64,000 nt of DNA from NCBI GenBank assembly GCA_024637295.1, contig JAGXFL010000004.1:1-64000 (forward strand), in the 5' to 3' direction. The stretch comes from Sulfuricurvum sp. GTDB taxonomy: Bacteria; Campylobacterota; Campylobacteria; Campylobacterales; Sulfurimonadaceae. The position numbers were made by a program, and so were the translations under genes. Shown here in pieces: positions 5,847 through 36,389 of the stretch (position 1 is its first letter; each line of letters starts with the position of its first letter). The notes below the pieces were generated by a model that was not told where the DNA came from, ran no database searches, and worked only from the letters and a program-made list of their open reading frames with translations.

Positions 5847-5860
5847 TTGATCGCTCATTC

Positions 5861-5877
5861 TTTATACTTTCTTTATA
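5861..5877 (+). promoter_or_regulatory. KdpE-box-like direct repeat upstream of kup
   Basis: Two perfect TTTATA hexamers separated by five bases (TTTATA-CTTTC-TTTATA), inside an exact 11-bp tandem repeat at 5858-5879. From memory, the E. coli KdpE site at kdpFABC is TTTATA-N5-TTTACA just upstream of -35. With the start site predicted near 5932, this repeat spans about -71 to -55, a comparable position. kdpE itself lies two genes downstream. KdpE binding is inferred, not shown. Confidence 0.6.
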
Positions 5878-5919
5878 CTTTTTGCCAATATCCTGAGATT
5901 TCACTGATACTAAATCATT

Positions 5920-5925
5920 TATAAT
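5920..5925 (+). promoter_or_regulatory. -10 box of kup
   Basis: Perfect TATAAT with no recognisable -35 at 17-18 nt upstream, as expected for an activator-dependent promoter. Start site predicted near 5932, about 27 nt before the kup ATG. AAAGGGA serves as ribosome-binding site. Confidence 0.6.
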
Positions 5926-5958
5926 GTACATCTACAAATCCTAGTTTAAAGGGACGTT

Positions 5959-7779
5959 ATGACGTTAAAAGAACGTATTAAAAGTGAGATGATGGTCATA
6001 AAATCACTGGGTGTGGTGTATGGGGATATTGGAACCAGTCCGATTTATACCTTTGCCGTTATTTTGTTGTTGGTACAACCGACAACCGAGACAATCTTTC
6101 AAATTTTATCGATGGTGTTTTGGACGATGTTTATGTTGGTCACCATCCAATACGCGTGGTTGGCAACGAGCCTTTCCAAGCGAGGTGAGGGGGGGACAGT
6201 CGTGTTAGTACAGCTGTTACTGCCGTATCTCAAAGGGGCTAAAATTACCGCATTAGTTGGGGTATTAGGTTTTATCGGGATATCGCTGATGATCGGGGAT
6301 GGGGTCATTACTCCTGCCATCAGTATTTTGAGTTCAGTTGAGGGGATTGCGTTGATCCCAGGCTATGAAAATACGCCAAAGCTGATTTTACTTGTCATCG
6401 CAGCTGGAATTGCGTTTGCCCTCTTTGCCGTCCAGAAAAAAGGGGTCGAAAAAGTAGCCAGTGCGTTTGGCCCGATTATGGTCGTATGGTTTTTTGCCCT
6501 TGCATTGGGAGGCGGTTACTATCTCCTCCAATCGCCAGAAGTGTTAAAGGCTATCTCGCCACTCTATGCGCTTGAATTTATCATCCAACACCCTTATATC
6601 GCTTTTGTTGTATTAGCTGATGTATTGCTTTGTGCAACGGGGGGTGAGGCATTATACGCCGATATGGGGCATTTGGGACGTCTTCCGATACTTAAAGGGT
6701 GGTTGTTCGCTTCAGTTGCATTACTCATTTCTTATTACGGTCAAGGGGCTTTTTTGCTCTCCCATCCAGAAGCGGCGAAAAGTCCATTTTTTGAGCTTTA
6801 TCACACTCTCGTTCCTGACTTGTATGTTCCGATGTTATTGTTGACCGTCCTTGCAACGATTATTGCTTCTCAAGCGATGATCAGCGGGATTTTTTCGGTT
6901 CTCTATCAGGCGATGACGACTCGTATTTTTCCGCACTTCAATGTGAACTATACCTCTAACGAACTGCGCAGTCAAATCTATGTTGGTTCTATCAACTGGT
7001 TTTTGTTCATTTGTGTCGTCGCAATGCTCTTTATCTTTGGAGAATCGGGAAAATTGGCAGCGGCGTATGGTCTTTCAGTTGCTGGGGCGATGAGCATCAC
7101 GGGCGTACTCATGAGTATGATTTTTATGTATAAACGTCAATATCTAAAAATGGGTATTTCCATCATTGCTGGATTGACCAGTTTGGTGTTTTTCATCTCA
7201 TGTTGGCTCAAAATTCCGCATGGCGGCTATTGGTCACTCATTATTGCATCGGTTCCTCTTTTTATCGTGATTCTTTATACGCAAGGGCAAAAACGGCTCT
7301 ATGCTTCATTTGTACCGATTGACAAAGAGCTCTTTTTAGCGGAATACCTCAAACGCTATGCGCAAGGGTTCTATGTAGAGGGGACGGCACTTTTCTTTGC
7401 CCGTAATGCCGATGCGATTCCTGCGTATATCTCTAAAACGATGTTTCAAAATGGGATCATGTACGAGCGCAATATCATCGTGACCATTCACCCTTCGTAT
7501 GAACCTCATGGGATTACCAGTGAACTCTCCCCAATAGGAGAAGGGCTTGATCTGCTTAGTATCAAACCGGGATATATGGAGACACTGAATGTCGAAGCGA
7601 TCTTACGTGAACGAAATATTGATGAACGTACGATCTTTTACGGAGATGAAGAGATCGTATCGGAGAGTTTTATATGGAAGATCTTTGCCTTTATAAAAGA
7701 TGTATCTCCTAATTTTGTCAGCTTCTATCATTTTCCGCATGAGAAACTGATCGGGGTTGCACGTCGGGCAGAGATTTAA
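5959..7779 (+). CDS. kup: Kup-type potassium uptake permease
   Basis: Imports K+ with protons across the inner membrane. The 606-residue length is typical of the KUP/HAK family. The N-terminal signature GVVYGDIGTSPIYTF (about 18-32) and the conserved segment GDGVITPAISILSSVEG are present, followed by about twelve hydrophobic segments up to about 440 and a soluble C-terminal domain (about 450-606). AAAGGGA precedes the ATG. kdpD follows after 6 nt and then kdpE, so the transporter is linked to the two-component system that normally controls KdpFABC; no kdpFABC gene is in the window. A KdpE-like repeat precedes its promoter. Confidence 0.95.
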   Translation: MTLKERIKSEMMVIKSLGVVYGDIGTSPIYTFAVILLLVQPTTETIFQILSMVFWTMFMLVTIQYAWLATSLSKRGEGGTVVLVQLLLPYLKGAKITALVGVLGFIGISLMIGDGVITPAISILSSVEGIALIPGYENTPKLILLVIAAGIAFALFAVQKKGVEKVASAFGPIMVVWFFALALGGGYYLLQSPEVLKAISPLYALEFIIQHPYIAFVVLADVLLCATGGEALYADMGHLGRLPILKGWLFASVALLISYYGQGAFLLSHPEAAKSPFFELYHTLVPDLYVPMLLLTVLATIIASQAMISGIFSVLYQAMTTRIFPHFNVNYTSNELRSQIYVGSINWFLFICVVAMLFIFGESGKLAAAYGLSVAGAMSITGVLMSMIFMYKRQYLKMGISIIAGLTSLVFFISCWLKIPHGGYWSLIIASVPLFIVILYTQGQKRLYASFVPIDKELFLAEYLKRYAQGFYVEGTALFFARNADAIPAYISKTMFQNGIMYERNIIVTIHPSYEPHGITSELSPIGEGLDLLSIKPGYMETLNVEAILRERNIDERTIFYGDEEIVSESFIWKIFAFIKDVSPNFVSFYHFPHEKLIGVARRAEI

Positions 7780-7785
7780 CGATGG

Positions 7786-8790
7786 ATGGTTTATAATTTA
7801 GTTATGTACCCGATTATCCCACCCTTTTTACTTTTGATCACTCTTGCGCTGATTTCCAAACTCTTTAGTGAGGAGCTTCAACTGGTCAATATTGGGATGA
7901 TTCATCTTATCCCTATCCTCTATGCGGCAATGCGGCTGGGGCGTAGAGATACATTGATCGTCTCGGTAGCTTCTGTCCTTTCATTTAATTTCTTTTTTAT
8001 CCCCCCAATGTTTACTTTTACTGTGCATGATGTTCGTTATGTTTTCAGCTTTGCCATTATGATCGCTGTCGGGCAGATTGTTGCATGGTTGAGCGAACGG
8101 GCGGCGATTGCTAAAGAGCTAGAGACATCCGAGAAGCTCCAAGAGACTCTCTTGGGATCACTCTCTCATGAACTGCGTACACCCCTTGCAGCGATCATGG
8201 GGGCATCATCGGGACTGCTCACTGAAGAACTTAATCTAAACAGTGAACAAAAAAAAGAGCTTTATGATACGATAGATCACGGTGCCCATCGTATGCAGCG
8301 ACTGATCGACAATCTCCTCGATACCGCTCGTCTGCAAAGCGGTATGTTAAAACTTAAAATCCAAGAGTGTGATATACGCGAACTTTTGGGAAGTGCGTTA
8401 TCAAAAACAGAGCATACTTTTCCCGCAACGTTAACGCTTAAAGAAGGTATTAGTCCGGTTCAAGGGGATGCCGTTTTGATTGAACAGGCACTGTTTAATC
8501 TACTTGAAAATGCCTTTAAATACGGTGATGCAGTCAATGTAACAGTAGAAAGTGATCTTATCGGGATTAAAATTCGTATCTGTAATACAGGTTCCATCCC
8601 ATCTGAGAATGAAGCCTCGATGGCATGGAAGCCGTTTTCGAGATTGAGCAATGTTCGAGGACAAGAGGGGATCGGATTGGGGTTATATGTGGCGTATCGA
8701 ATCGCCAAAATGCATGGGGGGAGTGTAGAGACGATGAGCGATGGCGTACAGTTTTGCGCAATACTGCGACTATTACATAGGGGTGAGTAA
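7786..8790 (+). CDS. kdpD: truncated KdpD-type sensor histidine kinase
   Basis: A 334-residue kinase corresponding to the C-terminal half of KdpD. It has the DUF4118 membrane block (hydrophobic helices at about 7-25, 42-75 and 85-105, with the KdpD-like stretch NFFFIPPMFTFTV), then the H-box SLSHELRTPLAA (phosphorylated His near 128), an N-box (LLENAFKYG) and a G-box (GIGLGLYVAYRIAKMHGG). It lacks the long N-terminal KdpD domain and the USP domain, which in E. coli KdpD read cellular signals; full-length KdpD is about 890 residues. The stop overlaps the kdpE start (TAATG). An alternative start is the ATG at 7804. Confidence 0.85.
   Translation: MVYNLVMYPIIPPFLLLITLALISKLFSEELQLVNIGMIHLIPILYAAMRLGRRDTLIVSVASVLSFNFFFIPPMFTFTVHDVRYVFSFAIMIAVGQIVAWLSERAAIAKELETSEKLQETLLGSLSHELRTPLAAIMGASSGLLTEELNLNSEQKKELYDTIDHGAHRMQRLIDNLLDTARLQSGMLKLKIQECDIRELLGSALSKTEHTFPATLTLKEGISPVQGDAVLIEQALFNLLENAFKYGDAVNVTVESDLIGIKIRICNTGSIPSENEASMAWKPFSRLSNVRGQEGIGLGLYVAYRIAKMHGGSVETMSDGVQFCAILRLLHRGE
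7792..7797 (+). promoter_or_regulatory. -10-like box at the start of kdpD
   Basis: TATAATTTAG (7792-7801) lies just inside the annotated kdpD start. The same ten bases form the promoters at 9503 and 33108. A transcript from here would begin near 7804, exactly at an in-frame ATG, giving a leaderless kdpDE mRNA in addition to read-through from kup. Confidence 0.4.
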
Positions 8791-9473
8791 TGAAAGAGAC
8801 GATATTAATCATCGATGATGACAGTGCGATTCGAAAACTGCTCGAAGTAGCATTAGGCGCGGCGGGGTATCATGTCTTAACCATAGCTACTGGAAAAGAG
8901 GGATTAAACCGTGCTGCAATCGAAGCTCCCGCATTGGTACTGTTAGATTTAGGATTGCCAGACATGGACGGCAAAGAGTTTCTTAGTCGTTTTCGCCAAT
9001 GGAGCCAATCCCCCGTCATCGTCCTCTCTGCCCGCTCCCATGAGAGTGAAAAAATAGCGGCGTTGGAAGGAGGATGTGATGATTATCTCACCAAACCCTT
9101 CGGTACAGGAGAGCTTCTAGCTCGGATCAAAGCGGCACTTCGCAGGCGTGGCATTGGTATGGGTGATTCAACTTCAGGTTTAATAAGCGGCAATCTCTCT
9201 TTGGACATAGCATCGCATACGGTGATGTTGGATAATGAAGAGTTGAAACTGACACCCAAAGAGTTTGAACTTCTCAAGATATTGATGCAAAACAGTGGAA
9301 AAGTCCTCACACACGCATGGCTGCTCAAAGAGATATGGGGTATCGGATATCAAAATGAGACCCACTATTTAAGGGTTTTTATCAATCAACTGCGTCAAAA
9401 AATCGAAACCGATTCTGCCCGTCCCAAGCGTATCATTACAGAAACAGGTATCGGGTATCGGTTTGTTGAATAA
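8790..9473 (+). CDS. kdpE: KdpE-type response regulator
   Basis: A 227-residue OmpR/PhoB-class regulator. The receiver domain (1-120) has the acidic pair in IIDDD, the phosphorylated aspartate in LLDLGLPDMDG (near residue 52) and the lysine in DDYLTKPFG. The winged-helix DNA-binding domain (about 130-225) has the typical LTPKEFELLKIL and TGIGYRF ends. It shares one base with the kdpD stop, so kinase and regulator are made together. The obvious target is the kup promoter, which carries a repeat resembling the E. coli KdpE site. Confidence 0.9.
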   Translation: MKETILIIDDDSAIRKLLEVALGAAGYHVLTIATGKEGLNRAAIEAPALVLLDLGLPDMDGKEFLSRFRQWSQSPVIVLSARSHESEKIAALEGGCDDYLTKPFGTGELLARIKAALRRRGIGMGDSTSGLISGNLSLDIASHTVMLDNEELKLTPKEFELLKILMQNSGKVLTHAWLLKEIWGIGYQNETHYLRVFINQLRQKIETDSARPKRIITETGIGYRFVE

Positions 9474-9536: not shown

Positions 9537-12464
9537 ATGAACATCGAAGAGATCGGGGCGTTGTTACAAAACAAAAACAAGCTCCTCTCCGAAACTTATT
9601 TTGAACTCCAAGCCGCCTGTGAAGCCAAATACGGTCCCGATACTCTCGTCATTATCGAGATCGGTTCGTTTTTCGAGGTGTATGAGGTCAATAATGCTGA
9701 CCTCAAGATCGGAAAAGCGAAGGAAGTCGCGGAGTTTTTGAACATTCAGCTCACCCGTAAAAACAAAACGATTCTTGAAAACTCTGTCCAAAATCCTCTA
9801 TTAGCCGGGGTTCCTACCGTCTCCATCGAACGTTATCTCAGCCGTTTGGTACAATCCAAAAAATACACCATTGTTCTCGTACGCCAGCAGGGAGAGCCTC
9901 CTCATGTCAAACGCTATATTTCCAATATTATCTCTCCGGGTACCAATTTTGATTATATTGCTGAAGTGAGTGAAAACTACATTGCGTCACTTTTGATCGA
10001 TCAAAACAACGGTGTCTATTCGGTTGGGTATGCTGCTATTGATGTGGGTACAGGGAAAACGCTTATCAATGAGATTCACGGTACACGTGATGATAAAACG
10101 TATGCCCTCGATGAGATCTTTACCCTTTTGCAAAGCTATCAGACCTCTGAAGTGGTAGTGACCTTTTGTGACAGTGAAATCGACGTCGAGGAAGTCAACC
10201 GTTATTTGGAACTCAAAAGCCATCATCGCAGTAATCGCAATGAGAAGAGACTTCGTGTGGACTATCAAAATGAGTTGTTTGAACGTATCTACCAGATACG
10301 CTCACTCCTTAGCCCCATCGAGTATCTGGACTTGGAGCGTTATGCGTATGCTTCGGAGTCATTGGCACTGCTGATACATACCATCATCGATCATGATGCT
10401 GCGATCATTGAAAAGATGAATAGGCCAACATTCTTGGGGACCAACCGTTATATGTATCTGGGGAACAATGCGGCGGAACAGTTGGGAATCATCTCCAGAG
10501 ATCACGATGAGATGACGTTGCTGAAGCTGATCGATAAAACCTCCACAGCGATGGGAAAACGCTTGATGCGTGAACGGTTACTTAACCCTATTTGCGATTC
10601 TAAATTACTCAATGAGCGGTATGATCTCATCGAGAAGATGCAAGAGCATATTGCCCCCTTGGAGACAAAGCTCAAAGAGGTCTATGATCTGGAACGGATT
10701 TTACGCCGACTGAAACTTGGTAAGTTGCACCCCTTTGAACTCGCTTATTTTCATGCTTCATTGAGTGCAGCTGAGAGTCTATTTGTGGATGCTAAGCGTT
10801 TAGGTATCGAGTACGATAGCAGCAGTGCCATAGAAGCTGGGTTATGTGCCAGTGAGTTGAAACGTATTTTTGATATCGATGCGTGTGCTAAATACCGCCG
10901 TGATCAGGTGAATGAAAACTTATTTAACGAGGGGATAGATCCCACGATTGATGCGTTAGAACGGTTACAAGAGAGCAATGAAGCGAAGTTACAGCTGATT
11001 ATCGATCATATCGATACGTATTTTGAAGGGGGAAGCAGTCCGTATGCCTCTATCGGGTGGCTGGAGAGCGAAGGATATCACCTGCTTATGACCCGTAATC
11101 GTTATGTGAATGTTGAGGAAGTGCTTCATAACAGCTTTTTCACCATTGAGGGGACTCACTATTTTTTCCGTGATTTTCAGATACGAAAACTCAAAACAGC
11201 TGTTAAACTCACGTCGCCATTACTGGATGAGCTTTCCATCGAAAACGCAGGGGCAAAATCGCGTATGTTGGCAATGGTCAAAGAACAGTATCGCCAGAAC
11301 ATGGAAGTCATCGAAAAACGATTTTCCCATGCGATTGAACACTTGATCTCTTTTTTAGCCGTTGTTGATGTGAGTTTAAGTGCGGCGAAGGTGGCGAAGC
11401 AATACCGCTATGTCCGTCCTATGCTCGTTGCCAATGAGTCCAAAACGTTTATCGAAGCGGTAGGATTGCGTCATCCGTTGATCGAATCGCGCGAAGAAAA
11501 CGGTATTTTTATCCCCAATGATCTGTTTTTAGGGGATGGGGAGTATCACACGTATGCAGAACATGCTACGCTTGAAGATGCCAAAGAGGTCAACGGCGTA
11601 TTGCTGTACGGGATCAACTCCAGTGGGAAGTCCTCCCTGATGAAAAGTATCGGGATCGCTGTCGTGATGGCGCAGGCGGGATTTTTTGTTCCGTGTGTAC
11701 AACTGAGGTTCTCCCCTGTAGACAAACTACTTACCCGTATCGTCTCCAAAGACAACCTTTACAAAGGGCTTTCGACGTTTGCGGTAGAGATGTTGGAGTT
11801 ACGCAATATTTTTAACCGTGCTACCCCTAACAGTTTGATTTTGGGAGATGAGATCAGTCATGGTACGGAGACCGAATCGGCATTGGCGATTGTGGCGAGT
11901 GCGATTTTAAAATTGCGAGAGATCGGGAGTTTGTTTATCTTCGCCACACACTTGCATCAGCTTTCAAGTCTAAGTGAAATTCAAAAAGCCAAAAACATCG
12001 TATTGCTGCATTTGGGTGTTTACTACGATGAAGCTACGGACAAGCTCGTCTATGACCGCAAACTCAAAAATGGGAGCGGTAGTACGCTGTACGGATTGGA
12101 GTTTGCCAAATCGTTGCATATGGATGAGACTTTTATTCAAAAAGCGTATGAGATACGAGGACGTATCGGGGATATGAAAGGTGAAGTCACTCAACTCAAA
12201 CGGGAGAAAAAAAGCCGCTATAACAGCAAGCTGTATCTGACAAAATGCGCGTTATGTGATGAAGCGGTGGATGAGGTACATCACATCATCCCCCAAGCCA
12301 ATGCCGATGAGGGGGGATCGATCGGTCATTTTGGTATGAACCATCGTTACAATTTAATTCCATTGTGTTCAAAGCACCACAGGCTCGTGCATGAGGGCAA
12401 AATCGCTGTTCATGGGTTTGTGATGAGTGAGGATGGATTGCGCCTTAGTTATTCAGAAGCCTAA
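9537..12464 (+). CDS. mutS7: MutS7-type mismatch-repair ATPase fused to HNH nuclease
   Basis: A 975-residue MutS homologue. The N-terminal mismatch-recognition domain keeps the F-x-E motif (GSFFEVYE, F45 and E47), which stacks on and contacts mispaired bases in MutS. Connector, lever and clamp domains follow. The ATPase has Walker [10 protein letters not shown] (about 691-699) and Walker [13 protein letters not shown] (about 765-776), then the FATHLHQL switch. The C-terminus from about 899 is an HNH nuclease: C904/C907 and C944/H947 as a zinc site, with H916, N939 and H948 in catalytic positions ([17 protein letters not shown]). This domain order defines MutS7, known from Campylobacterota, giant viruses and octocoral mitochondria. 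Recognition plus cutting in one chain may make MutL/MutH unnecessary; that is a family hypothesis. No mutL is in the window. Confidence 0.9.
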
Positions 12465-36326: not shown

Positions 36327-36335
36327 ATAAGTTTT

Positions 36336-36341
36336 TATAAT
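36336..36341 (+). promoter_or_regulatory. -10 box of the YeeE-type gene
   Basis: TATAAT 48 nt before the ATG; AGAGGA is the ribosome-binding site. Confidence 0.45.
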
Positions 36342-36389
36342 ATTTTTACACTTCTCCTCTATACTTGCAAAAAAAGAGGATGGTAGACA

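Follow-up and report, generated by a model that had tools for sequence, protein, structure and literature searches.

A kup-kdpD-kdpE operon in Sulfuricurvum

A 64,000-nucleotide (nt) stretch of DNA from the sulfur-oxidising bacterium Sulfuricurvum sp. (positions 1 to 64,000 of contig JAGXFL010000004.1; hereafter "the window") carries a gene for a Kup-family K+ transporter that is followed directly by genes for a KdpD-type sensor kinase and a KdpE-like response regulator. KdpDE is known from textbooks as the switch that controls the Kdp pump. Most descriptions present Kup as a constitutive, low-affinity transporter. The genes and the elements ahead of them are listed below, with protein lengths in amino acids (aa) and distances in base pairs (bp).

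5858-5879 (+): exact 11-bp tandem repeat, TTCTTTATACT twice, enclosing half-sites S1 and S2
5861-5866 and 5872-5877 (+): distal KdpE-like half-sites S1 (TTTATA) and S2 (TTTATA), a candidate KdpE site
5893-5898 and 5904-5909 (+): proximal half-sites S3 (CTGAGA) and S4 (CTGATA), forming CTGAGA-N5-CTGATA with 11-bp spacing
5920-5925 (+): TATAAT, the -10 element of the predicted kup promoter, in conserved columns; predicted start near 5932
5959-7779 (+): kup, Kup-family K+ transporter, 606 aa; PF02705 (E 3e-140) and PF22776
7786-8790 (+): kdpD, short form, 334 aa; DUF4118 membrane domain, HisKA and HATPase (Pfam)
8790-9473 (+): kdpE, OmpR/PhoB-family response regulator; Response_reg and Trans_reg_C (Pfam)

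A sequence-only reading of this DNA had placed kup, kdpD and kdpE in this order, with a 6-nt gap between the first two and a 1-nt overlap between the last two; this arrangement holds, and Pfam confirms the families. The Kup protein matches PF02705 (K_trans) with 468 bits against a cut-off of 24.8, and its best NCBIfam family is kup, at 358 bits and under the equivalog cut-off of 540. We infer that it transports K+. The kdpD assignment survives in part: the DUF4118, HisKA and HATPase domains are all present, but this is a short form without the KdpD/Usp N-terminus, in which Pfam detects no PF02702 serine-kinase/sensor domain, no Usp domain and no GAF domain. It is not a full-length KdpD.

The response regulator consists of a receiver domain, which retains the phosphoacceptor Asp (D52 in Escherichia coli), and an OmpR-type winged helix. 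It is 51% identical to E. coli KdpE, and KdpE is also its best relative of solved structure. E. coli KdpE needs residues R193, R200 and T215 (PMC3264566). The KdpE-specific R193 is kept in the window protein together with R200, T215 and Y191. The residue at position 193 is D in an unrelated OmpR-type protein that served for comparison. The NCBIfam KdpE model is the best match among all families, with 251 bits; because this is under the equivalog cut-off of 325, we call the protein KdpE-like, although the model, whose name (PRK10529) is enterobacterial, may be narrowly tuned.

The promoter region ahead of kup

Upstream of kup, TTTATACTTTCTTTATA at 5861-5877 reads TTTATA-CTTTC-TTTATA and lies within the exact tandem repeat, as the first reading had noted. 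The repeat at 5858-5879 is the only 9-mer tandem with 11-bp spacing in the window. The position of -71 to -55 that had been given for the site is correct relative to the transcription start predicted 7 nt after TATAAT; relative to the kup ATG, the site lies at -98 to -82.

The E. coli kdpFABC element, tttatactttttttaca, was read upstream of kdpF in strain MG1655. The E. coli KdpE site, TTTATACTTTTTTTACA, differs from the window site at two positions, namely the last spacer base and the T/C position, and the first half-sites are alike. KdpE leaves a footprint from -72 to -50 on half-sites TTTA(T/C)A separated by a 5-bp spacer, and variation at the T/C position is tolerated (PMC3264566). The kup promoter therefore carries a TTTATA-N5-TTTA(T/C)A direct repeat near -71 to -55, which we designate a putative KdpE site.

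Such a sequence is unusual in this DNA. The pattern TTTATA-N5-TTTAYA has two matches in the window against 0.04 expected by chance, and the probability of finding one in a shuffled 112-bp gap is about 8e-4. The exact TTTATA-N5-TTTATA sequence occurs once in the whole genome (2,166,522 bp), ahead of kup, and no better KdpE box was found in the genome. When one mismatch to TTTATA-N5-TTTATA was allowed, genome scans returned fewer matches than a reversed control pattern, and therefore weak matches mean nothing. A near-consensus match at 36334-36350 was discounted: the genes on either side of the short gap that contains it are unrelated, and the promoter model R1 described below does not match it.

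The claim of a KdpE box ahead of kup stands for the distal pair, but the control region comprises four half-sites, and the second pair had been overlooked. This proximal pair (S3/S4, 5893-5909) begins 21 bp after S2 and ends exactly 10 bp before TATAAT. A promoter scan of the window found no TTGACA-like -35 element paired with the kup -10, which fits an activator-dependent promoter. PhoB-activated promoters have this arrangement, in which a site pair ends 10 bp before the -10 and the -35 hexamer is missing.

Conservation of the promoter among relatives

Homologues of kup were found in 18 of 60 relatives. The KdpE-like box is kept in nearly all relatives where kup adjoins a KdpDE-type pair. Sulfuricurvum genomes with short kdpDE genes beside kup, as well as genome G110 from another genus of the same family, share the order S1-11-S2-21-S3-11-S4, followed by 10 bp and the -10 element (positions 5861, 5872, 5893, 5904 and 5920 in the window). 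In G052, which belongs to another family, the distal pair is kept and the proximal pair is weaker. The strong conservation upstream of kup that the sequence-only reading would require is thus evident in the alignment of kup-kdpDE promoters. Information content averages 1.43 bits per column in the half-sites, 1.49 in the -10 element and 0.81 elsewhere, with some spacer columns near random. This layout is missing upstream of four kup genes (L013, L015, L018 and L019) to which no two-component system is linked, and two of them reside in genomes (G016 and G033) that also carry a boxed kup-kdpDE operon. A rough Fisher-type figure for the association between the box and a linked two-component system is 0.0014, ignoring relatedness.

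One might propose that no regulator takes part and that the block is conserved as an ordinary promoter or through recent shared ancestry. Many of the compared strains are indeed congeneric. However, the spacers between the half-sites and the -10 have diverged whereas the half-sites and their spacing have not, and the same layout precedes the non-homologous kdpFABC genes, with its proximal half recurring before kdpD-ktr operons and the antiporter-kinase gene described below. We regard this explanation as very improbable.

Model R1 was trained on 14 kup promoters of relatives, with the window promoter left out. It assigns the window kup promoter 58.9 bits (E 1e-15) and the next best site in the genome an E value of 0.19, and the kup promoter is thus the genome's only convincing R1 site. 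The model also recognizes the box of a held-out kup-kdpDE operon from another genus (G405), at 25.4 bits.

Other potassium systems in the genome

No KdpA was found in the genome, and hence no kdpFABC; PF02702 is likewise absent genome-wide. The window's KdpD is the only DUF4118 kinase. A second KdpE-like regulator was not found in the genome, the next best protein being 35% identical, and those of the genome's other best OmpR-family matches that were checked differ in the recognition helix. No antiporter-kinase was found in the genome either. The proposal that Kup acts in place of an absent Kdp pump is therefore upheld as to the pump, but a ktrBA pair, without kdpDE, is present elsewhere in the genome, and the idea that Kup is the only K+ importer was rejected.

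Related operons with other transporters

Sister strains G002, G004, G007, G011, G019 and G020 carry kdpFABC-kdpDE operons. Where the promoter could be read, it consists of TTGATA-N5-TTTATG and, 21 bp on, TTGAGC-N5-TTGACC, and thus presents four half-sites with the same 11-21-11 spacing as the kup promoter. These operons differ in that their output is the pump, their KdpD is a full-length protein of 893 aa and their KdpE is only about 52% identical to the kup-linked KdpE. The pump operon and the kup-short-kdpDE operon are strictly mutually exclusive in the genus sample, although the numbers are too small to lean on.

Elsewhere in Campylobacterales, short KdpDE pairs are followed by KtrB/KtrA, and most of their promoters contain a sequence resembling YTGAYA-N5-YTGAYA-N10-TATAAT. 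A score of at least 16 is reached by 11 of 14 such promoters, compared to 14 of 1500 random 200-bp pieces of the window. Like the window operon, these operons combine a short DUF4118 kinase and KdpE with a linked K+ transporter and a half-site pair 10 bp before the -10. In contrast, their output is KtrBA (TrkH/TrkA), the kinase genes come first, the distal pair is absent and the KdpE proteins form a separate clade with a different recognition helix.

A further arrangement, seen in 11 of 64 relatives, is a 687-aa CPA2-type Na+/H+ (or K+/H+) exchanger fused to HisKA and HATPase domains and followed by a KdpE paralogue. A KdpE-like box lies 10 bp before its -10. This antiporter-kinase may be a transporter that doubles as its own sensor. 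Representative loci are as follows.

L186, 3093-5153 (-): antiporter-kinase
L222, 3834-5897 (-): antiporter-kinase
L223, 3028-5091 (+): antiporter-kinase
L221, 1846-3909 (-): antiporter-kinase

Most promoters of ktr-linked kdpDE operons and most antiporter-kinase promoters have a single pair with the geometry of S3/S4. An R1 scan of 150 relatives gave matches at promoters that were not in the training set. These lie ahead of antiporter-kinase/KdpE operons in G002, G007, G008, G016, G020, G021, G025, G029 and G061. They also precede ktr-linked kdpDE genes in G001, G026, G131 and G139, several of them weak (E 0.01 to 0.1), and small genes located after the pump cluster in G002 and G020.

Both regulatory proteins vary with the transporter. 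The KdpE tree sorts by output (ktr, 99/96; antiporter-kinase, 100/100; kup plus antiporter-kinase, 83/80; genus pump, 100/100). Each of the eight pump operons read encodes a KdpD of 892-897 aa, and the KdpD of every one of the 27 kup- or ktr-linked pairs measures 329-367 aa. PF02702 and Usp are present in the long form, which was seen only with the pump. The N-terminal domain of KdpD is a serine kinase acting on KdpB (PMC11018627). Where the pump is not the output, this domain may have no substrate, and its absence would then make sense.

Given these patterns, we consider it fairly probable that the KdpE switch of Campylobacterales is a plug-in module whose output has been swapped among the Kdp pump, Kup, KtrBA and the CPA2 antiporter-histidine kinase, with the serine-kinase domain kept only alongside the pump. 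The promoter grammar shared under this proposal would consist of one half-site pair located 10 bp before the -10, to which a second pair, 32 bp farther upstream, may be added.

Some relatives show additional gene arrangements around these systems. In G007, one cluster (L122, 5960-19501) unites kdpFABC-kdpDE, two kup copies and an antiporter-kinase in a K+ transport island, which also encodes a 141-aa membrane protein without a Pfam match and, between the two kup copies, an Lcl_C-domain protein. Several strains have a 139-aa Lcl_C-domain protein gene between kup and kdpD (L131, 5812-6231; L188, 4791-5210; also G451 and G349), whose product is possibly a periplasmic partner of the sensor. Furthermore, the same upstream open reading frames, of 168-170 and about 396 aa, adjoin either the kup-kdpDE operon or, in other strains, the antiporter-kinase operon (L186 and L189 compared with L221, L223 and L226), which suggests that K+ modules are exchanged at one chromosomal site. 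In the window, the gene directly downstream of kdpE (9537-12464, +) encodes a MutS-family protein (domains I, III and V) with a C-terminal HNH endonuclease domain; it recalls the MutS7 type, which has been reported for epsilonproteobacteria and for the mitochondria of octocorals.

Proposed regulation of kup

We propose that kup-kdpD-kdpE is an autoregulated operon in which phosphorylated KdpE (KdpE~P) activates transcription through two site pairs, with Kup as the dedicated output in a genome that lacks the pump. From the sequence comparisons, we assign this explanation a probability of roughly 0.8. The short KdpD would phosphorylate KdpE when K+ is limiting or during a related stress, and KdpE~P dimers would then bind the two tandem 11-bp direct-repeat sites upstream of kup. 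The distal pair would act as a site of the same type and position as that of E. coli, and the proximal pair, ending 10 bp before the -10, would serve to recruit RNA polymerase as PhoB-class activators do. Bound KdpE~P would thereby switch on all three genes, including its own and that of its kinase. Comparative genomics largely supports the suggestion that KdpDE controls Kup.

The parallel with E. coli extends to a KdpE-type regulator, a distal site that is almost identical and lies equally far from the start, and kdpDE genes within or beside the operon under control. However, the output here is Kup rather than a P-type pump, the kdpDE genes come directly after kup, a second site pair adjoins the -10, and KdpD is without the N-terminal serine kinase, Usp and GAF parts.

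The stimulus is probably K+ limitation. In other species, cyclic di-AMP, UspC and (in Sinorhizobium fredii) PtsN act through domains that are missing from the short KdpD, and the stimulus is therefore less certain than homology implies. One possibility is that KdpE binds this promoter but represses or only tunes kup, and that the true stimulus is salt, pH or envelope stress. The short KdpD is without the PF02702, Usp and GAF sensing parts, the papers found contain no study of how this form senses, and related KdpE pairs of the genus control the antiporter-kinase. We nevertheless judge this alternative unlikely, given that the proximal pair's 10-bp distance from the -10, together with the missing -35 hexamer, is a PhoB-class activator geometry and that the distal site matches the activating position in E. 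coli.

Several observations weigh against KdpE control of kup. The window KdpE and KdpD both score under their NCBIfam equivalog cut-offs, and conservation among close relatives is partly shared ancestry. Distant kup-Lcl-kdpDE operons (G451 and G349) have no R1 match, and the pump operon of G139, from another family, has no such box within the stretch read. A matrix built from six pump promoters is too narrow: in full it misses the kup site, and a version restricted to the half-sites ranks that site third in the window. Gel shifts with S. fredii KdpE showed binding to kdpFABC and none to kup (PMC9239096). Finally, G003 retains a good box (49.6 bits) in a genome without kup, a DUF4118 kinase or a KdpE-like regulator.

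The G003 box (L220, 3632-3699, -) lies downstream of serA, where other strains carry kup, and the gene after it encodes a response regulator with an HD domain (NosR-family cyclic di-GMP phosphodiesterase). It resembles the remnant of an operon that has been deleted, although it could reflect capture by another gene or point to another regulator. Persistence of this box without KdpE, and the fact that sites of regulators throughout the OmpR/PhoB family generally take the form of 11-bp direct repeats, might indicate that the kup repeat is read by a different member of that family and that its linkage to kdpDE is incidental. This is distinctly unlikely in our view: the box accompanies KdpDE-type pairs in operons of four kinds and does not precede kup genes without such pairs, the E. 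coli KdpE site has a matching first half-site and spacer, and KdpE-type recognition residues occur in these regulators only.

Significance

No report of KdpE control of kup, or of this promoter layout in Campylobacterota, was found in the open-licence papers searched, and the S. fredii gel shift, in which kup was not bound, is the one direct test of KdpE on kup that was found. In Geobacter sulfurreducens, kup likewise adjoins kdp genes, lying downstream of kdpABCDE, but an osmosensitive riboswitch rather than a KdpE site has been suggested to control it (PMC2700814).

KdpE-type regulators in these bacteria appear to drive interchangeable transporters. If activation of kup by KdpE proves true, then the KdpE site and its regulatory genes have moved to Kup, and the KdpDE sensor is not tied to the pump. 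The kup-kdpDE system would be well suited for asking which signals reach a KdpD that has no N-terminal half, and why that half, whose serine-kinase activity targets KdpB in E. coli, disappeared wherever the pump is not the output.

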